In this document: in pieces, positions 50,472-61,970 of the stretch | Position numbering within the stretch: the stretch's first letter is position 1 | Layout of the letters: the number at the start of each line of letters is the position of its first letter | Assembly: GCF_000186865.1 (NCBI RefSeq) | Contig: NW_008705562.1 | Span: forward strand, 865,737 to 929,736 | Source of the DNA: Aureococcus anophagefferens | Lineage: Eukaryota > Sar > Pelagophyceae > Pelagomonadales > Pelagomonadaceae | DNA: 64,000 nucleotides | Reading direction: 5' to 3' | Notes under the pieces: generated by a model | Told to the model about the DNA's origin: nothing | The model's database searches: none | What the model saw: only the letters and a program-made list of their open reading frames with translations | Program-made: the position numbers and the translations under genes

Positions 50472-53400
50472 TCGTCCGAGAGCGACGGCATCTTCGAGAC
50501 GAAGAAGAAGGCGAAGAAGCCCGCGGCGAAGCGCGCCGCGCCGCGCAAGAAGCAGGCCGTGGACCCGGCCATGGTCGTCGACAGCGACACCGTCGCGGCG
50601 CCCGTCGAGCTCTCGGCGGAGGAGAAGGAGCTCAAGTGGCCGATCAAGCCCGTGCCGCCCGCGTTCAAGCCCAAGGCGGCCCCCGCCGCCGACGACGACG
50701 ACGAGGAGGCGTCGCCGTCGACCTCGAAGAAGCGCAAGAGCAAGTCGTCGACGGGCAGCGCCTTTGACGTGATGATGAAGAGCGCGAAGACGCCCTCCCG
50801 CAAAAAGAAGGCCGGCGACGACGACGAGAAGTTCTCCGCGGACCTCGACAACGACCTGCCCGTCATCAGCCGCCCCCACGACATCTTCGCCGACATCGTG
50901 CGGCGCTTCCCCGAGATCGGCGAGCTCGCCAAGTCCATGGACCGGCCGCTCCGCGTCGCGACGATGTGCTCCGGCACGGAGGCGCCGATCCTCGCGATGG
51001 ACCTCACGTCCCAGGCCTGCGAGGCCCAGCACGGGTCGCCCTTCCCCGTGGAGCACATCTTCTCGAGCGAGGTCGAGCCCTTCAAGCAGGCTTATATTCA
51101 GCGCAACTTCGCGCCGCCGCTCCTCTTCCGCGACGTCCGCGAGCTCGGCAACAAGCGCGCGCACACGGCCTTTGGCGCGTTGGAGGACGTGCCCCAGGAC
51201 CGGGACCACTTCGACGTGCTCATCGCCGGCACGTCCTGCGTCGACTACTCGAACCTCAACGACCACAAGAAGACGCTCGACCAGGGCGGCGAATCCGGCC
51301 AGACGTTCTACGGCATGCACGAGTGGGTCCAGCGCGCGCGGCCCACGCTCGTGCTCCTCGAGAACGTCTGCGGCGCGCCCTGGGGCGGCATGATCAAGAA
51401 CTTCGCCGACATCAAGTACCACGCGCGCCACTCGCGCCTCGACACGAAGCACTTCTACCTCCCGCAGACGCGGACGCGCGGCTACCTCCTCGCCGTCGCC
51501 CACGAGCGCTGCGGGCCCGGCGTCCTCGACGCCTGGGAGGAGAAATTGGCCAAGATGCGCCGGGCGGCGTCGGCGTCCCTCGAGGCGTTCATGCTCGCGC
51601 CCGACGACCCGCGCGTCTCCGCGGCGCGCGCGGACCTGAAGCACGTGTCGCGGAACAAGAACGACGTGCCCTGGGAGAAGTGCGAGGCGCGCCACGCGCG
51701 CGTCCGCGGCGAGGAGAAGCTCGGCCAGAAGCGGCCCGTGACGAACTGGTCCCACGGCACGAACAACGCGAGCCTGCCCGACTTCGCGTGGCGCGACTGG
51801 GCGCACGCGCAGACGGAGCGCGTGCTCGACTCCATCGACATCGACTACATGCGCCTCGTGCAGAAGAAGGTCGACGCGTCCTTCAAGACGTCGGTCTGGG
51901 ACCTGTCGCAGAACGTCGACCGGTCGAACCCGACGAACTCCAAGCTCGGCATCTGCCCGTGCCTCACGCCGTCGCTCTGCGCCTACGTGACGAACCAGGG
52001 CCGGCCCGTGATTGGCGTCGAGACCCTGGCGCTCCAGGGCATCCCCATCGACGACCTGCTGTTGACGCGCGAGTCCGAGGACAACCTCACGTCGCTCTCC
52101 GGCAACGCGATGTCGACGACCGTCGTCGGCTCCGCTCTGCTGGCCGCGCTCCTCGTGCTGCCCATGGAGAGCCTGGAGAACATGGGCCTCGCGTCCGAGA
52201 CCGCGGCCAAGAAGGCGAAGACGGGCGGCCAAGAAGGCCAAGAAGACGAGGCCGCGGTCGCCGTCAAGGAGTCGGCCATGGCCGCGCCGCGCGCGCTGCC
52301 CATGGGCGCGCTCGACGACGTCGCGTCGCCCCTCTTCGAGGCCGGCACGCCCGTCACCTACGGCGCGTTGCGGCACGCGGGCATCCGGACCATGCGCCGC
52401 TGCATCTGCGAGTCGCGGAATTCCAACTCCGACGCGCGGATCCTCCGCTGCGAGAAGTCGGGCCACACCGCGTGCGAGAACTGCGCGGGCAAGCCCGAGC
52501 ACTACTTCGCGCCCGACGACACGCCCCGGTCCGAGCCCCGCGCCTTCGAGAAGGCGCTGGCCAAGGCCCTGCCGGGGTCCGTCGTCCTCGCGGGCGTCGG
52601 CCGCGCGGCGCTCGAGAAGGCCGTCGCCGGCGCGGACGGCGTCGACGACTCGATCCTCGACGCGTGGCTCGACCACGTCGCGGACCTCGACGGCACGGAG
52701 CTGCGCCAGGCCGGCGTCGCGCGCGGCGACGACTGGAAGGCGACCTTCGCGGACGCCGCGGGCAAATTCACCGCGGAGCTCCGCGTCGGCGACGGCAGCC
52801 CCGAGTGGCTCGTCTACGCGGACGCGCCGCCGGGCAAGGGCGCCCTGCGCGACGCCTTCAAGACGCCCGTGCTCCGCGGCGCGACGTCGCCGGAAGGCGG
52901 GTTACTTTCCGTCGCGTGGTCCGCGCACGGGCCCGGCGGCGCGTCTTCGAACGTCACGATCTCGCACGGCGGCGACCTCATCGACACCTTCGAGTCGACC
53001 TTCGCCATGGAGGACGGCTCCGTGGGCTCGAAGCGCCACTCCGTCATCACCGTGGAGGGCGACGCGTCCGTCGCCGGCACCTACGACGCGCTGCCCAAGT
53101 GCTCCGCGGCGCTCGGCTCGCTCCACAAGCGGCGCGGCGGCGACGTCTACTTCTTCCTCGAGTCCGAGCCCGTGGGCAAGCCCGAGAACGATGGCTACGT
53201 CTTCGCGTTGGACTGGCGCAAGCTCAAGCTCTCGGAGCAGCGCGCGTCCATCGTCGCGCGGTTGGACGTGAAGTGGAAGCCGCCCGTCGCCGGCGACGGC
53301 GTCAACTTCAAGAAGGCCGAGCTGTCGCGGTCCGTGGACGCCGTCGCGCCCGTCTGGTGCGCCCTGCCCGGCGCGTCCCTCGAGGCCGCCGCGGGCCGCG

Positions 53401-56400
53401 ACGGCGTCGTCGCCAAGGTCGAGGCGTCGCTCTCCGGCGCCGTCGACCTGTCGACGGCGTCGCCGCGCGACGCCTTGGCCGTGCTCCAGTGCGCCGTGCC
53501 CGTCGGCGACGACCTGGCGACGCTCGGCGGCGTCTGGTCGCCCAAGGCCGCGCGCGACGCCTGGGCGCCCCTCGCGGCCGCGAAATTGGGCGCGTGCGGC
53601 GTGGTAGCCACGCAAACGTCGCGCGAGATCGGCTTCGTGACGCCGCGCCTCGAGCTCCCCGGGGCGTTGGGGGCCTGGTCCTCCGCGGCCCACGTCGAGG
53701 TCTTCGCCGACGCCCTCGCGAAGACGGGCACGTGCTGCGCGGTCTGCGCGCCCACGCCGCCCACCTTGGAGTGGGCCAAGGAGGCGGGCAAGCGGTCGAC
53801 GACGTTCATCGCCGTCGAGGACCCCTACAGCGCGGGCGTCTACGAGCGCGCCCTCAAGCACCGGCCGTCGACCTTCGCCATGCAGGCGCGCCTCGACTCC
53901 AAGGGCGGGAAAGGAGAATTGCGCGTCGCGGTGAACGCGCGCGCGCTCTGCGCGCGCGCGTTCGCGTCGCTGCCCGCGCGCGTCCACGCGCGCCGCGAGG
54001 GCGACACGGTGCTCGAGTGGCGCGTCGTCCCCGGCGAGCCCACGTTCCAGCGCGAGCGCGCGCCGAACCGGCCCTTCGGCCTCACGTCGAACCGCGGCGA
54101 CGTCGAAGCCGCGCAGCCCGCGTCGTTCGTCGCGTCCGGCGCGTCGCTCCGGCCCGAGCAGCTCCGGTCCCTGACCTGGATGCTCGCCATGGAGCGCGGC
54201 GAGACCTTCATCGAGGAGGAGGTCGTCGACGACACGCTCAGCGCGCTGGGCTGGCGCGCGGAGGCGCGCGTCCGCGTGCCCACGACGGTCCGCGGCGGCG
54301 TGCTCGCGGACGCCGTCGGCTACGGCAAGACGGCCATCACGCTCGCCTTGATCGACGAGACGAAGACCGACGAGCCCCCGGCCCTGCCGGCCTACCACGT
54401 CGCCGCCGACGGGGCGCCCAAGGCCATCCCCTGCAAGGCGACGCTCATCGTGGTCCCGAAGCATTTGATGGCGCAGTGGCCGTCGGAGCTCAAGAAGTTC
54501 CTCGGCGGCGCCGCGGCGAAGAAGTACAACGTCATCACCATCGCGACCATGCTCGACCTCAAGAAGCTGACCGTCGCCAAGATGCTCGCCGCGGACATTG
54601 TGTTCGTGGCCGTTTCCGCGTTCCGCACGGACGCGTTCTACGACCATTTGGCGGAGTTCGCGGCGGTGCACAAGCTGCCCAAGAAGGGCGGCCGCCACTT
54701 CCAGGAGGTCCACGCCAAGGCCATCGCCAACGTCGAGCGCTACGTGGGCCTCCTCCAGGCCGAGGGGCCCGACGCGCTCCGGAAGGCGCGCAAGGCCGAC
54801 AAGGCGCGCGACGAGGTCACCATCGCCGTCAACACGTCGAAGAAGCAGGCCTACAAGGACGCGGCGCCCCTGCGCGGCGCCCGCGAGAAGACGGCCGCGC
54901 CCAAGAAGAAGAAGGCGGAGAAGCCCGACGAGCCCATGCCCGACGCGGCCGACGACGACGAGCCCATGGACGACGAGGACTCCGAGTCCGAGGAGGAGGA
55001 GGTCAAGAAGCCGAAGAAGGACGCGTGGAAGAAGCTCCAGGCGCCGCCGCTCCAGCTCTTCCACTTCGCGCGGAAAGTCGTCGACGAGTACACGTACCTC
55101 GAGGCGCGCGACGTGCCGACGATCCACGCGATCAAGGCGCGGTCGTCCTGGGTGCTCTCCGGCACGCCGCCCATCGACAGCTTCGACGACGTCAAGTCCA
55201 TCGCCGCCTTCCTCGGCGTCCACCTCGGCGCCGCGGACCCCGTGCAGCTCACGAAGAAGGGCACCGTCGCGCGCGCCGACGCGCACAAGGAGCTCTCGAA
55301 ATCGGAGATGTTCCACGAGTTCATGGAGAACCGGTCCGAGTCCTGGCACGCGCGGCGCCGCGACCTCGCCCAGGCCTTCGTGAACCGCTTCGTGCGCCAG
55401 AACGTCGCGGAGATCGACGAGATCCCCTTCGTCGAGCACGTCCGCAGCGTCGACCTGCCGTCCGCGGAGCGCGCGGTCTACCTCGAGCTCGAGCACCACC
55501 TGCGCGCCCTCGAGATGCAAACCTCGAAACACGCGGGCCGGGGCCGCGCGGGCTCCGCGCGGAGCGACCGCGAGGCGCGGCTCCGCGAGGCCTTGGAGGG
55601 CTCCAGCGACGCGCACGAGGCGCTGCTCAAGCGCTGCGCGTACTCGACGCTCGACGGCGGCGCCAAGGGCGCGCCGGCGACCGTCGTCGGCGCCTGCGAC
55701 TTGGTGGTGGCGCGCCGCGAGGCCGAGCTCGACGAGTGCGCGAACCAGATCCGCCGCGAGGTCGCCGCGGCGTACCGCCTCGAGGGCGAGCTCCGCCGCT
55801 GGGACGCCGCGCGGCCCATGAGCGGGCCGACGGTCAAGTCGAAGCCCTGCCTCGACGCCTTCGACAAGTTCGACTCGGCGACGGGCATGTGGTACGCCGA
55901 GGACGTCGGCGGCTCGGCCGCGGGCAAGAAGCGGAAGGCGGCCGACCGCGTCTGCGGCCACAAGCACATGCGCGAGCTCGCGGACGAGCTCGCGGGCGGC
56001 TACGGCGACGCCGAGGCGTCGGCGAAGCTCCTGGCCATCGTCGACGAGGCGAAGCAGGACGCGGCGAAGAGCCCGAACTGCTCCCTCGCGAAGCCCGCCG
56101 CGGCCGACGACTCGGACGACGACGCCTCGGACGACGACTCGGACGCGCCCAAGAAGAAGAAGAAGCCCAAGAAGAAGGCCAAGAAGAAGGTCGACGAGAA
56201 GGACCGCGCCAAGTACATCGAGGACGTGTCCTACCACCACAAGATCGACGCGCTCGTGTTCCCGGAGCCCGTCGTCGCCGGCGAGTCCGAGCCCAAGCGC
56301 GCGGAGCGCGCCGCGACGCTCAAGGAGCTCATGTGGGCGCTGCGGAACCAGGTCTACGAGCTCCGCGCGCTCAACAAGGAGTTCGTCGGCCGCATGCGGT

Positions 56401-57155
56401 CCCTCCGCTTCTTCCGCGGCATCGCGCGCGCCGCGAAGCGCAAGGGCCTCACGTGCGACGCGACGGGCGCGAAACTGGACCTCGCCAAGTTCGCGCTCCT
56501 CAGCTGCTGCGGCCACGCGGGCGACGTCGACGCGCTGAAACTCGCGGCGGCGCGCGAGGCCTGCCCCGTGCCCGGCTGCAAGGCGCCCGTGCGGCTCCAC
56601 TCCGTCGTGCCCTGCGCGGCGTTCGCCGCGGACGACGGCGCGACCGTCGCGGCGCCCCACGGCGCCAAGCTCGCCCAGATCGTCGACCTCGTCAAGTCCC
56701 TGCCGGGCGACGAGCGCGTCCTCGTCTTCGTCCAGTTCGCGGACCTCCTCGCCAAGGTCGACGGCGTGCTCAACGACTCGGGGATCAAGACGCTCAAGAT
56801 CAAGGGCTCCGCGCACCAGATGATGAACGCCATGACGGCCTTCCAGGCCGAGACCCTCGCGAAGGACGACCCGCGCGTCCTCCTCCTCGAGCTCCACAAC
56901 GAGTCCGCGTCCGGCGCGAACCTCACGACCGCGAACCACGCGATCTTCGTCCACCCGCTCCACGTCGACAAGCTCCAGACCTACATGGCCTGCGAGACCC
57001 AGGCCATCGGCCGCGTGCGCCGCTACGGCCAGAAGCGCACGGTCAACCTCTACCGCTTCCTCGCGGCCGACACCGTCGACTCGCGGCTCTTCGAGTCGCG
57101 CCGCGACGAGGTCGCGGACTACGTCGCCCGCGCGAAGAAGAGCAAGGGCGCCTAG
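49999..57155 (+). CDS. DNMT5: DNMT5-type DNA methyltransferase with RING and SNF2 ATPase
   Basis: Exons 49999-50286 and 50340-57155, 2,367 residues; the 53-nt GT-AG intron joins EEEER to APKKRPARAKK. A basic and Asp-rich disordered N-terminus (about 290) precedes a C5-methyltransferase: RVATMCSGTEAP near 300 (motif I), FDVLIAGTSCVDYSNLN near 388-404 (catalytic Cys, DNMT5-style in place of PCQ), LLENVCGAPW near 432, and LSGNAMSTTVVG near 683. SNF2 half: GGVLADAVGYGKTA near 1416, VVDEYTY (Walker B), WVLSGTPP, a RING near 2133 (LLSCCGHAGD...CPVPGCKAP) and QAIGRVRRYGQ near 2317. Known members maintain CG methylation with ATP hydrolysis. Confidence 0.92.
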
Positions 57156-57232: not shown

Positions 57233-58312
57233 TCAGTCGGACGCCTTCTTGACGAGCGCGATCTCCGGGCCGCCCTTGTTCGTGACCGTCGCGCACATGG
57301 GGCAGTGGGCGTCGACGGCGCCCTTGAGCATCTTGACCTGGTCCTCGGACGCGGTCGTGTAGAGCTTGACCGTGCCGCGGATCGCCTGGAAGCCCGCGCG
57401 GACGGCCGGGTCGACGCCAAGGAAGCCGCGGAGGTCGCAGTCGCCCTCGATGTCCGTCTCGATCTTGAAGAGCTGGATGCCCATGGCCGTCGCGTAGGCC
57501 TTGTAGGAGATGTCCTGGCACGTGGCGAGGGACCCGAGGAGGAGGTCGAGCGGGTTCGGCCCGAGGTTCTGGCCGCCGGGCATCGACTCGGGCTCGTCGA
57601 CGACGTAGGGCCCGTGGTGCGGCGTGTTCGGGAAGGACAGCGTCGTCTTGAGGCCCGCCTCGAGCTTCGACGACGACTTGTAGACGGCCTTGCCCGCGGA
57701 CCGGTCCGCGCCGAGCGCGGCCTGGAGGTCGCCGACGGCCTCGGCCGTGAGGTTCTCGTCTTTCGGCGCGTCGAGGCCCTCGGGGCTCGCGACGACGGTC
57801 GTGAGCGTCATGGAGCACGTGCCGACGAGGAAGTCGCACATGGGGCAGTGGCCGTCGACGGCGCCCTTGAGCATCGCGAGCTGCTCCTCCGTCGCGTCGG
57901 CGTCGATCGTGACCGTGCCGGCGATCTTCGTGAAGCCGCGCGGCGCGTCCGGGTCCACGCCGAGGAAGCCGGCGAGGTCCAGGTCGCCGCTCAGCTCGCA
58001 GGCCACGGACCGGAGCGGGATGCCCATGGCCGTCGCGTAGGCCTTGTACGCGATCTCCTGGCACGTGCCGAGCGCGCCGAGGCACAAATCCATCGGGTTC
58101 GGGCCCGCGTCCTTGCCGCCGGGCATCATCGGCGGCTCGTCGACGGGGTAGGGCCCGTGCTCGGGCGTGTTCGGGAACGACAGGCTCGTGCAGAGGCCCT
58201 CGACGAGCACGCTCTTGGCCTTGTAGCAGCACATGGCCACGGCGGGGTCCGCTTTGAAAGCCGCTTGCACGTCGCCGATGGCCTCCGCGGTCGGTTCCGC
58301 CATGCCGCCCAT
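57233..58312 (-). CDS. Tandem double OsmC-family protein
   Basis: 359 residues from ATG 58310-58312 (a second ATG follows three codons on). Two copies of the OsmC/Ohr fold in one chain: LSFPNTPEHGPYPVDEPP...GPNPMDLCLGALGTCQEIAYKAYATAMGI near 40-100 and its counterpart near 220-280. Each half keeps the helix Cys (LGALGTCQ, LGSLATCQ) and the second Cys (GHCPMCDF, AHCPMCAT). OsmC proteins are normally about 140 residues and dimerise, so this looks like a fused dimer that reduces organic peroxides through a Cys pair. No targeting signal is obvious. Confidence 0.85.
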   Translation of the reverse strand: MGGMAEPTAEAIGDVQAAFKADPAVAMCCYKAKSVLVEGLCTSLSFPNTPEHGPYPVDEPPMMPGGKDAGPNPMDLCLGALGTCQEIAYKAYATAMGIPLRSVACELSGDLDLAGFLGVDPDAPRGFTKIAGTVTIDADATEEQLAMLKGAVDGHCPMCDFLVGTCSMTLTTVVASPEGLDAPKDENLTAEAVGDLQAALGADRSAGKAVYKSSSKLEAGLKTTLSFPNTPHHGPYVVDEPESMPGGQNLGPNPLDLLLGSLATCQDISYKAYATAMGIQLFKIETDIEGDCDLRGFLGVDPAVRAGFQAIRGTVKLYTTASEDQVKMLKGAVDAHCPMCATVTNKGGPEIALVKKASD

Positions 58313-58494
58313 GGTCGTCCTTGTGTCGGTGTGGTTTTTGCGATGCGCCGCGACGTCTGCGAGCGGTGTCAAGCGCGATTGCACGTCTGGAAGTGTCGGG
58401 CGCTGCCTCTGCGATCCAGGGCCAGCCAAGACCGGGTGCTGAAGCTTGTGGAGAAGTGGTTTGCACCCACATTGCAGGCGACTTGCAGGCGACG

Positions 58495-58533
58495 ATGGCA
58501 GCTCTAAAACCAGCGCTGCGACGGGCTAGCTAG
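58495..58533 (+). other. Possible upstream ORF before the selenoprotein gene
   Basis: ATG 58495 opens 12 codons and ends at TAG 58531-58533, inside the first 51-bp repeat and 68 bp upstream of the main ATG. If it lies in the transcript it could restrain translation. Transcription start unknown. Confidence 0.3.
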
Positions 58534-58601
58534 CACCGACGCCGCAACCGAGCTCTAAAACCAGCGCTGCGACGCGCTAGCTAGCACCAACGCCGCAAGC
58601 G
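58500..58601 (+). repeat. 51-bp tandem repeat, two copies, abutting the start codon
   Basis: 58500-58550 and 58551-58601 differ at three positions. Each contains AGCTCTAAAACCAGCGCTGC and GCTAGCTAGCACC. The second copy ends exactly at the base before the ATG of the selenoprotein gene. A smaller TTGCAGGCGAC direct repeat lies just upstream near 58472-58492. Confidence 0.9.
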
Positions 58602-60594
58602 ATGGCCGACGACCTCGCCGCGGAGAACGCGCGCCTGCGCGCGCGGCTCGCGGCGCTCGAGGGGCCGAGCATCGCGTCGAGCATCGTCGAGCTCGTCGGC
58701 AACACGCCGCTCCTGCGCCTCGACGCCGCGTCCGCCGAGTGCGGCGAGGTCCTCGGCAAGCTCGAGTTCCTCAACCCCGGCGGCTCCGTCAAGGACCGCG
58801 CGGCGCTCGAGATCGTCCTCGCGGCCGAGCGCGACGGTTCGCTGCGGCCCGGCGCGACGCTCGTCGACGCGACGTCCGGCAACACGGGCGTCGCGCTCGC
58901 CATGGTCGCCGCCGCGCGCGGCTACGGCTGCGTCGTCGTCATGCCGCGGCTGGGCCCCAACGTCGAGCGCTACGCGCTGATCAAGGCCTACGGCGGCGCC
59001 GTGCTCCTCTCCGAGGTCGCCGACGGCACCGAGGGCATGCTCGCGCTCGCGGAGCGCGCCTGCGCCGCCATCGACGGCGCCTTCTTCTGCGGCCAGTTCG
59101 CGAACCCGGCGAACGAGCGGAGCCACTACGCGGCCACGGGTCCGGAGATCTGGCGCCAGTGCGGCGGGCGGCTCGACGCCGTCGTCGTCGGCGCGGGCGC
59201 GGGCCGGCGTCCCGTATCCGCGACGATGTTCGAGAGATGTTGACCGATGAAATATTGTTACCGACGCGTGTGTTAGGCACGGGCGGCACGGCGGCCGGCG
59301 TCGGCCGCGCGCTCCGCGAGGCCGCGGCGGCCGCGGGCGCCGCGCCGCCGCCGGAGATAATCGTCGTCGAGCCCGAGCTGTCGCGGGTGCTCAGCGGCGG
59401 CCAGCACCATAACGGCCACGGCGTCACGGGCATCGGCGCGGGCGTCCCGCTCGCGTTCGTCGCCGCCGCGGGCGAGGCCGCGCCAAGCAAGTTCGTGCCG
59501 GACGCCTACGAGGCCGCGGCGCTCGGCGCAGGGCAGCAAAAGAGAGCGAAATTCCCAACTTCAAAGGCTCCTTTCTCGGCCGATTTCCACTCGTTTCGGC
59601 TGACTTTTGGACGAGCGATCATCTTTCGGAGCGCTCTCGAAGCGTGGATGCTTTTTTCGGATCGCGCGCGCGCGGAACACTCACGTCGAAGGGAAGTTGA
59701 ATCTCTCTTTTGCTGCCCAGGCTCGGCGACGCGCTCGACGCCGCGCGGGACCTCGGCCTGACCGCGGGCGTGCTCGCGGGGCCGAGCTCGGGCGCGGCGC
59801 TCTGCGTCGCGCGGCGCGTCGCGCGGCGGCTCGGCCCGAAGAGCCGCGTCGTCGTCGTGCTGCCGTCGGCGGGCGAGCGCTACCTCACGCACCCGCTCTT
59901 CGACGCCGCGCGCCGCGAGGCCGAGTCGGAGCTCCGGCGCGCCGTCGCGCCGGGCCGCTCCGACGCGGCCGCGGAGCTCGCGAAGCTCCGGCGCGAAGCG
60001 GCGCCCGCGCGGCGCGCGCCGCCGCCGCCGGCCGTCGTCGACGCGCGCGCCGCGCTCGAGGCCGACGTCGCGGCCGTCGTCGCGGGGCTCCTCGGCGTCG
60101 ACGCCGTGCCCCCGGACGCGCGGCTCGAGGACCTCGGCGCGACGTCGCTGACGGCGGCGCGCCTCCTCGGCAAGCTCGCGCAGTCCGGCGCGCTCGCAGA
60201 GGGGAGCCTGCCGGGCGCCAAGGTCGCGCTGCTCAAGGTCGCGTTGCTCGGCACCGCGCGGGACCTCGCGCGCGTGCTCCTGCGCCTCGGACCGGGCGAC
60301 GCGCCCCTCCCCGGCGCCCCGGCGCCGCCGGGCTACGCCGTCCACGTCGAGTACTGCGGCGGCTGAGACCCGCTCTTCGGCGCGCAGTTCGCCGCGCTGT
60401 CGGCGTTCCTCGCGTCGCTCTTCGAGGGCCTGCCCGTCGCCGGCGGCGAGGACGCGGGCATGACCGGCGCGTTCCGCGTCACGCTCGCGACGCCGAACGG
60501 GAGCGTCCTCCTCTCGCCCTACGGCTTCATCGACACGCCCGCGAGGCGCGCGCGCCTCGCGGCGTCCATCGCCGACCGCCTGCCCCGCCCTTAG
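58602..60594 (+). CDS. Selenoprotein: cysteine synthase + carrier domain + SelW-like domain (TGA 60364-60366 read as Sec)
   Basis: Exons 58602-59196, 59277-59520 and 59721-60594, 570 residues. Residues 1-350: PLP cysteine-synthase fold with NTPLLRL, GSVKDR (Lys64), TSGNTG (91-96), GAGTGGT restored by splicing, and GPSSGAA. Residues about 380-470: carrier-like domain with LEDLGATSLTAARL, Ser422 being the expected phosphopantetheine site. Residues about 486-570: after VHVEYCGG comes TGA, then a frame to TAG 60592-60594 that matches selenoprotein W in order: CxxU, long helix, TGAFRV, LLSPYGFIDT, terminal helix. Sec would be residue 495. A SECIS hairpin follows 13 bases after the stop. Likely a thiol/selenol redox enzyme linked to cysteine or diaminopropionate-type chemistry; the combined role is unknown. 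Confidence 0.85.
59205..59276 (+). mobile_element. Introner family B, copy 3 (72 bp)
   Basis: CGGCGTCCCGTATCCGCGAC, then GATGTTCGAGAGATGT, parallels copy 1 (30157-30236) at about 28 of the first 33 bases after GTCC. Its end ACCGACGCGTGTGTTAG is only loosely similar. Flanks GCGCGGGC (59197-59204) and GCACGGGC (59277-59284) match seven of eight. Using the GC of the first flank as donor restores the conserved VGAGTGGT loop of cysteine synthase. Confidence 0.7.
59529..59720 (-). mobile_element. Introner family A, copy 3 (192 bp)
   Basis: Reverse complement of copies 1 and 2 on the plus strand, inside a plus-strand gene. Termini CAGGGCAGCAAAAG and CTTTTGCTGCCCAG. It is flanked by a perfect 8-bp duplication GCTCGGCG (59521-59528 and 59721-59728). 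Splicing from the first GC to the final CAG removes exactly 200 nt and rejoins AAALGDALDAA without change. Confidence 0.93.
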
Positions 60595-60606
60595 CGGGGC
60601 ACCGCC

Positions 60607-60672
60607 GGGCCGCCCATGACCGGCGCGTCGCCGCCTCCTCCCCGGGAGAGGCGGCGCGCCGCGAACCGGCCC
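60607..60672 (+). promoter_or_regulatory. SECIS element (selenocysteine insertion hairpin)
   Basis: Helix I pairs GGGCCG (60607-60612) with CGGCCC (60667-60672). The non-Watson-Crick core is TGAC (60617-60620) opposite CGAA (60662-60665), giving the tandem G.A/A.G pairs that define eukaryotic SECIS. Helix II pairs 60621-60625 with 60657-60661 and 60629-60637 with 60648-60656, with a three-base bulge CGT. The apical loop CTCCCCGGGA (60638-60647) has C residues where most SECIS have AA; CC forms are known, e.g. in mammalian SelM. Helix II of 14 bp is slightly long. Confidence 0.75.
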
Positions 60673-60824
60673 CGCGGGATATTGTAGAAGGCAGACGATG
60701 TCCGAGAGCGCGGCGCGTGCGGCACCGTCAGATGATCTTCGGCCGGCGGCGAGTTCGGAGAAGCATTCCAACACACAATCACCGCTGCGCTCGTCGTCGT
60801 GCAGCGCCAGCAGCTCACCGCAAC

Positions 60825-61970
60825 ATGCTTCTCATCCGCAATGCACAACTCCTACGCCGCCAGCACCTCTCGCTTGCAACGCGCGCAATGAGAACAAGCG
60901 CGCGCGCCGCGACGCCGACGGTTGGCCGGCACCACTCGCTTGCAACGCGCGCGGCTAGCAGCGCGCGCGCCGCGACGCCGATGATCGGCGACTGGATGCT
61001 GTCGACGCCCATCGCCACCGATGCAGTGCGCCCGGCCAGCACGCGCGCCGCGACGCCGCTCATCGGCGACTTCTTGCTGTCGACGCCGATGGCGATCGAC
61101 GCGCCGGCGGCGACGCCGTCGCTCCAGGACCCGACGCCGCCGGCCGCGGCGGCCGCGTCGTCCGCGCCGTTCGCGGAGACGACGGTCGCGGACCACGCGT
61201 GGCGGCAGACGAACCACATCTGGAGCGAGGAGGAGCTCGGCCGCGTGACGGCGACGTCGCACGCGCCCGTCACCGCGTCCGACTACGCCACGAAGGGCTT
61301 CATGAACGTGCTCTACCACGGCTTCAACTTCATCACGGGCTACGACCACGCGGACCCGTCGCCGAGCTCCGTCGCGTGGCGCCTCATCATCCTCGAGTCG
61401 TTCGCGGGCGTGCCCGGCTTCGTCGCCGCGGGCTTCCGCCACTTCTACTCGCTCCGCGAGCTGAAGCGCGACCACGGCGCCATCTTCACGTTCCTCGAGG
61501 AGGCGGAGAACGAGCGCATGCACCTGCTCGTCTGCATGAAGATGTTCGAGGCGTCGCCCGCGACGCGGGCGCTCGTCGTCGCCGCGCAGTTCACGATGAC
61601 GCCGCTCCTCTGCGCGACGTACGCGGCGAGCCCGCGCGCGATGCACCGCTTCGTGGGCTACCTCGAGGAGACGGCGGTCATGACCTACGCGAACCTCGTC
61701 GAGAAGGCGGCGACGCCAGGCACGCGGCTGCACGGTGCCTGGGCCGGCCTCGACGCGCCGGACATCGCCAAGTCCTACTGGAAGCTCGACGACGACGCGA
61801 GCTGGGCCGAGTGCCTCCGCCACATGCTCGCCGACGAGTCCCACCACCGCGACGTGAACCACGCGTTCGCCGAGCTCCCGCGCGACGCGGAGAACCCGTT
61901 CATCGGGGACCACATGCGCGACTTCGACAAGGCGGCGACGGCCCACGCCGCCGCGAAGCGCCGCGAGTAA
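60825..61970 (+). CDS. AOX: Alternative oxidase (AOX), mitochondrial
   Basis: 381 residues from ATG 60825. The N-terminus (LLRRQHLSLATRAMRTSARAATP) is an Arg/Ser/Ala-rich mitochondrial presequence extended by three imperfect (S/T)RAATP..G repeats up to about residue 100. Di-iron ligands are intact: RLIILESFAGVPG near 186 (first Glu), FLEEAENERMHLL near 222 (E..H pair), GYLEETAVMTYANL near 283 and LADESHHRDVNH near 335. It transfers electrons from ubiquinol to oxygen at the inner membrane without pumping protons. The conserved regulatory Cys of plant AOX is not seen, as is usual in protists. Confidence 0.93.
   Translation: MLLIRNAQLLRRQHLSLATRAMRTSARAATPTVGRHHSLATRAASSARAATPMIGDWMLSTPIATDAVRPASTRAATPLIGDFLLSTPMAIDAPAATPSLQDPTPPAAAAASSAPFAETTVADHAWRQTNHIWSEEELGRVTATSHAPVTASDYATKGFMNVLYHGFNFITGYDHADPSPSSVAWRLIILESFAGVPGFVAAGFRHFYSLRELKRDHGAIFTFLEEAENERMHLLVCMKMFEASPATRALVVAAQFTMTPLLCATYAASPRAMHRFVGYLEETAVMTYANLVEKAATPGTRLHGAWAGLDAPDIAKSYWKLDDDASWAECLRHMLADESHHRDVNHAFAELPRDAENPFIGDHMRDFDKAATAHAAAKRRE

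Follow-up and report, generated by a model that had tools for sequence, protein, structure and literature searches.

Aureococcus anophagefferens is a selenium-rich alga, credited in the available part of one survey (PMC7539508) with 82 selenoprotein genes of 33 families and in the available part of another report (PMC5917014) with 59. Some algal selenoproteins are fusions: the accessible text of PMC7539508 names SELENOM-pVHL in Aureococcus, and SELENOM-ShKT and GST-MSRA in Emiliania, and that of PMC2398784 names fusions with other partners. The gene described here resembles the fusions of PMC7539508 in joining a selenoprotein domain to another domain, but its partners are different: the accessible text of that survey names no fusion that involves SelW, a cysteine synthase or a carrier. 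Literature searches that covered selenoproteins of Aureococcus, fusions of SelW and fusions of cysteine synthase with a carrier gave no paper with this architecture; Gobler et al. 2013 may count the gene as SelW. Selenoproteins as such are known, and so are SelW-type domains and fused selenoproteins; the present combination appears to be new.

The gene lies in a window of 64,000 nucleotides (the whole stretch of A. anophagefferens DNA that was analysed). It is best read as a nuclear gene for a three-domain selenoprotein, consisting of a pyridoxal phosphate (PLP)-dependent cysteine synthase, a phosphopantetheine carrier and a SelW-like CxxU domain in that order, whose in-frame UGA would be decoded as selenocysteine (Sec) by eukaryotic recoding with a SECIS element in the 3' untranslated region (3'UTR). 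From sequence, conservation and structure prediction taken together, the probability of this reading is put at about 0.95.

Gene structure and reading frame

The gene is on the forward strand, and its two introns, both with GC-AG ends, were placed from restored motifs and from relatives. Exon 1 (58602..59196, 3' end putative) encodes the N-terminal part of the PLP domain, exon 2 (59277..59520) the middle of that domain, and exon 3 (59721..60594) the end of it together with the carrier domain, the Sec codon, the SelW-like domain and the TAG stop. Putative intron 1 (59197..59276) restores the motif GAGTGGT when it is removed. Putative intron 2 (59521..59720) appears to derive from a repeated transposon-like (introner-type) element, of which at least 40 copies with 93-100% identity are present in the genome (40 scored of 2007 first-look candidates). 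It has near-perfect terminal inverted repeats (GGGCAGCAAAAGAGAG) and an apparent 8-bp target duplication (GCTCGGCG). Introners of Aureococcus have already been published, according to the accessible text of PMC9860276.

When the exons are joined, a protein of 570 residues is predicted, with the TGA as residue 495. The TGA (60364-60366) immediately follows VHVEYCGG, with the Cys of the CxxU motif at 60355-60357, and is itself followed by 75 sense codons (60367-60591) and TAG (60592-60594), just as an earlier note on this DNA had placed them. The chance of an open run of 75 codons at this base composition is about 0.49; with so high a GC content the open frame by itself is weak evidence, and the reading depends on further findings. 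The earlier note held that random GC-rich sequence would not produce such an extension, which needs correcting as regards the open frame. The features that exceed chance are the conservation on both sides of the TGA, the coding GC pattern, the profile and fold matches and the SECIS-like hairpin. The GC content by codon position is 0.879/0.593/0.986 before the TGA in exon 3 and 0.720/0.587/0.987 after it, compared with 0.697/0.788/0.879 in the 99 bases past the TAG; the pattern is still of coding type past the TGA.

These figures bear on a rival reading, in which the TGA is an ordinary stop and the frame beyond it either belongs to a small gene of its own or is what remains of a SelW-like one. 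An open run that is expected about half the time is compatible with it, as are profile scores below the curated cut-offs (see below), but the coding GC pattern, the conservation of the extension as protein in relatives and the SECIS-like hairpin downstream all count against it, as does the predicted fold, which includes the strand with YC ahead of the TGA. The first Met of the extension, moreover, comes only at MTGAFRV. An ordinary stop is considered extremely improbable.

Several observations were made on the neighbouring genes. On the minus strand, 57233-58429 holds a divergently oriented gene whose product has two OsmC domains (both stretches matching PF02566); it possibly shares a promoter region with the fusion gene. 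A unit of about 51 bp is present in two near-identical copies, noted by eye, at 58501-58602, abutting the start codon. Further upstream, a frame of 2198 residues (50559-57155) has DNA cytosine methyltransferase and SNF2 domains and is presumably DNMT5-like. The downstream neighbour (about 61260-61970) is an alternative-oxidase-type protein (PF01786, from the domains of deposited protein P0001), which the deposited models P0001 and P0008 fuse to the cysteine synthase by running into the next genes of the window.

Synthase and carrier domains

The PLP fold matches PALP with 153.6 bits in exon 1 (58602-59204; cut-off 35), where cysKM also matches with E=3.9e-56, and with 23.7 bits in exon 2 (model positions 166-226). 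The PLP region of the window was scanned against cysK and cysM exon by exon; the equivalog scores are those of a metagenomic relative, P0004, which matches TIGR01136 and TIGR01139 with E near 1e-80 (cysKM 5.4e-81) as well as many solved cysteine synthases, while falling below the curated equivalog cut-offs (cysK 271.7 against 350.95; cysM 212 against 394.2). Cysteate synthase and SbnA are weaker PLP profile matches. The domain thus shares its PLP fold, best profiles and matching solved structures with the O-acetylserine sulfhydrylases CysK and CysM, but differs from them in these sub-cut-off scores and in the carrier and SelW-like domains added behind the synthase.

The carrier domain (60040..60310) matches PF00550 with 26.5 bits (cut-off 20.8) and includes a DxGxxS motif, here DLGATSL, with a candidate attachment Ser at 60145-60147, as expected of a putative phosphopantetheine carrier. 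Its best sequence and fold matches include carriers of nonribosomal peptide synthetases (NRPS) and polyketide synthases (PKS), from which it differs in its position, with a cysteine synthase ahead of it and a SelW-like domain behind. A profile scan of the fusion gene found no adenylation or condensation domain.

The SelW-like domain

The extension, together with the strand ahead of the TGA, forms a domain (60337..60591) with the order of features that the earlier note had described (V.V.YCG.U, a helix, TGAF.V, S.YGFIDT and a final helix), and its predicted secondary structure is b-a-b-b-b-a. The CxxU of VHVEYCGGU follows the first strand (model residues 4-9), and the strand with YC ahead of the TGA is part of the same predicted fold as the extension. 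The earlier note had suggested comparing the extension with the Rdx/SelW family profile. TIGR02174 (SelT/SelW/SelH) matches with 29.4 bits and E=7.4e-7, below its curated cut-off of 34.2, and Pfam Rdx (PF10262) with 16.4 bits and E=0.011, below its cut-off of 22.6. Since both scores are below the cut-offs, the domain is named SelW-like and no curated SelW/Rdx membership is assigned.

The fold comparison speaks more plainly for kinship with SelW than the profile scores do. The AlphaFold2 model of the domain (pLDDT 85.4) is nearest to SelW structures by Foldseek and by VIA, mouse SelW (2NPB; E=5.7e-4, TM 0.70) being the only structure that Foldseek matches at E<=0.001, and the model has a thioredoxin-like b-a-b-b-b-a fold nearest to SelW. 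A phmmer search of the extension against PDB sequences stayed at noise level, with SelW 2NPB ranked fourth (E=0.6), and a profile of the extension (A3) had no match among PDB sequences. Three SelW proteins of the same genome align poorly with the extension (hhalign probability 42%, E=2.6e-4). The domain resembles SelW/Rdx (PF10262; TIGR02174) in the CxxU after the first strand and in the predicted fold, but differs in its sub-cut-off scores, in its place at the C-terminus of a 570-residue enzyme and in its LSPYGFxDT..RR signature.

The same genome holds further loci with a TGA inside an Rdx domain. A further SelW gene, read by eye, is on the minus strand of locus L006 (1740-1790), with YCGG-TGA-GYK in a separate exon; it too has a SECIS-like hairpin, and an intron hid it from the six-frame search.

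Conservation across the TGA

The relatives are known from protein sequence, the TGA not being readable in their DNA, and they show that the coding sequence is conserved both before and after the in-frame UGA of the window. The best 8000 candidates from a search with residues 330-570 were scored, giving nine proteins, of which six (P0002-P0007) terminate exactly at YCGG, one (P0009) terminates elsewhere, and two (P0001 and P0008) skip the YCGG-TGA motif and continue into the extension. The latter two are deposited A. anophagefferens proteins (JL721_10951 and JL722_12739, respectively) that match the window nearly letter for letter over long stretches, as judged by eye; P0008 is 98% identical over residues 498-557. 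Gene models therefore either stop at the TGA, as the earlier note had predicted, or omit the CxxU.

A search with the extension found 20 proteins at E<=10. Nine of them begin at the third codon past the TGA position, and another eight at the eleventh codon. In an alignment of 20 sequences, 29 columns are invariant. A profile search with the extension among metagenome proteins yielded 48 rows, 45 of them at E<=1e-3. Unrelated sequence after the TGA in related species, which would have spoken against the selenoprotein reading, is thus not what the relatives have. P0005 and P0025 come from contigs that agree in source and length (1793), as do P0003 and P0051 (3533); from this agreement, both halves of the gene probably lie on one contig in these relatives. 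Homologues of the fusion with Cys in the place of Sec, which the earlier note had suggested seeking, were not seen either among the best 8000 candidates or in the 48-row profile search. DNA of the relatives was found neither in genome contigs nor in plasmids; among the viral contigs searched the extension was absent, and one (L035) has a synthase 35% identical. Three more distant short open reading frames (P0053, P0055 and P0057; E of 3.4e-4, 0.086 and 0.23) keep SGNFxV and LSPYGFVDTxxRR with no Met before the likely CxxU, and are perhaps other Sec-containing members of the domain family.

The models P0001 and P0008 imply another reading, that an intron removes the TGA and the fusion protein is made without CxxU. 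There are 15 in-frame GT..AG pairs of at least 40 nt that span the TGA in the window, and metagenomic P0010 and P0029 are also without the motif. However, the conserved V.V.YCGG strand and the active-site loop would be lost from such a protein, six of the nine relatives among the best 8000 candidates reach YCGG, and the stretch of the window that corresponds to the junction HVE/LFG of P0001 measures only 21 nt, too little for an intron. Compared with the window at 60364-60375, P0010 is 92% identical past LFGAQF and has FCFLPR in place of YCGGUDP, which reads as though the end of an intron had been translated; in another strain the Sec codon may be followed directly by an intron, in which case the motif would be kept. 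Removal of the TGA by an intron is accordingly judged highly unlikely. Read-through by another tRNA was set aside as not needed.

Candidate SECIS element and selenocysteine machinery

A good candidate for the SECIS element of the predicted selenoprotein gene, absent from the earlier note, was found at 60602..60677 in the follow-up analysis. Folding of 60592-60700 gives a long hairpin in which AUGAC (60616-60620) faces CGAAC, with CGA at 60662-60664, in an internal loop between two helices, forming a UGAC/CGAA core. Its fold energy by itself is unremarkable (z -1.41). At twelve other loci of this genome a match to Rdx, GPx, MsrA or Sep15/SelM contains a TGA, and each of the 12 has a hairpin with the pattern [AG]TGAC...CGA, 11 at <= -0.75 kcal/mol per nt and L003 at -0.48. 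The hairpin directly follows the traced stop in nine of them; that of L012 is further on, apparently in a later exon, that of L029 is before the traced stop, and in L016 the tracing ended at its intron. An AA motif is usual in SECIS apical loops; among these hairpins (L003-L033) the [AG]TGAC...CGA is shared and the AA motif is not in all. The nearest comparison to the hairpin of the window is the element of L032 (ATGACCGGCGCG...CGCGCCGCGA). An alignment of the hairpins with MAFFT found no common register.

A descriptor, written after the hairpin of the window and the comparison loci had been inspected, matches all 12 of these loci and the window at 60616-60664 (-33.7 kcal/mol), 21 nt past the TAG; at <= -0.75 kcal/mol per nt it is matched by one in 5000 shuffled UTRs. 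On both strands of the 64-kb window there are 21 loose matches, only that at 60616-60664 being at <= -0.75 kcal/mol per nt; a second (61245-61293, -0.51) appears at the level of L003, and the descriptor therefore separates cleanly at the stricter level alone. In 132,772 nt from twenty other loci, searched on both strands, there are four matches at <= -0.48, of which two are at <= -0.75, in L006 (the SelW locus with YCGG-TGA) and L013 (the same element as that of L016), both within selenoprotein genes. L004 has an extra match (1192-1236, -0.75 per nt) upstream of its SelW match, either the element of another gene or chance. Rfam found no SECIS in the window or its 3' region, nor did Rfam SECIS_1 in the whole genome; SECIS_1 is judged insensitive here, because it missed the 12 comparison loci as well. 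A weak Rfam row for a Brucella sRNA (E=0.35) was dismissed as chance.

The genome (49 Mb, 86 contigs) encodes machinery for selenocysteine. Its tRNA-Sec scores 73.9 bits (cut-off 47, which five of 14 control genomes also exceed), and ARAGORN likewise reports a tRNA-SeC. A selB-like segment (189.4 bits, below the cut-off of 242.25, and matched in all 14 control genomes too) is only suggestive of eEFSec.

Possible function of the fusion protein

Five cysteine synthases have been reported to convert GSSH to GS-cysteine and thiosulfate to sulfo-cysteine, both of which give cysteine on two-electron reduction (PMC13188885). It is plausible that the CxxU domain acts as a reductant on the same chain and that the phosphopantetheine arm carries sulfane sulfur or the adduct. 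In the scheme that we tentatively propose, every step of which is inferred, the synthase would join O-acetylserine and a sulfane-sulfur donor (persulfide or thiosulfate) into a cysteine mixed disulfide or S-sulfocysteine, and the carrier arm would shuttle donor or adduct between the synthase and SelW-like sites. The C-terminal selenol and the resolving Cys of the CxxU would reduce the adduct and free cysteine, and would be re-reduced by glutathione or thioredoxin. When selenium is scarce, translation would end at the UGA, and the product would consist of synthase and carrier but lack the reductase. A more specific version, which we regard as speculative and rather improbable, is a single-chain selenium-dependent cysteine factory, in which the sulfane sulfur would be held in persulfide form on the phosphopantetheine thiol, its addition to the aminoacrylate by the PLP domain would give carrier-S-S-cysteine, and the selenol would reduce this product, freeing cysteine and regenerating the arm.

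Two other workings are real rivals to the proposed scheme, each rather unlikely in itself. In one, the selenoprotein fusion makes or modifies another carrier-held beta-substituted alanine of a natural-product-like kind, and the SelW-like domain reduces a disulfide of the product; the NRPS/PKS carriers among the best carrier matches agree with this, and the PLP family includes such synthases (the weaker matches cysteate synthase and SbnA), but in profiles and in solved structures alike the PLP domain matches cysteine synthases best, and the gene itself has no adenylation domain. In the other, the SelW-like domain serves as a redox switch, through which oxidative or selenium status would control the synthase, and stays outside the chemistry of that enzyme. 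SelW-type CxxU domains are thiol oxidoreductases and UGA decoding depends on selenium supply, which agrees with such a switch; the intervening carrier domain, however, would be left with no role. The selenoprotein reading is very probably the best explanation of the locus overall, the proposed synthase-carrier-reductase working being less likely than not.

Implications for annotation and sulfur metabolism

The gene would add to the known selenoproteins an architecture of PLP enzyme, carrier and CxxU domain that gene finders break: six protein models from metagenomes stop at YCGG, and the motif is dropped from the two that were deposited for Aureococcus. A working SECIS pattern has also been gained for a GC-rich genome in which Rfam SECIS_1 finds none. 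If the single-chain cysteine factory is true, the fusion protein would turn oxidised sulfur into cysteine by a route that depends on selenium and is common to marine relatives of Aureococcus.
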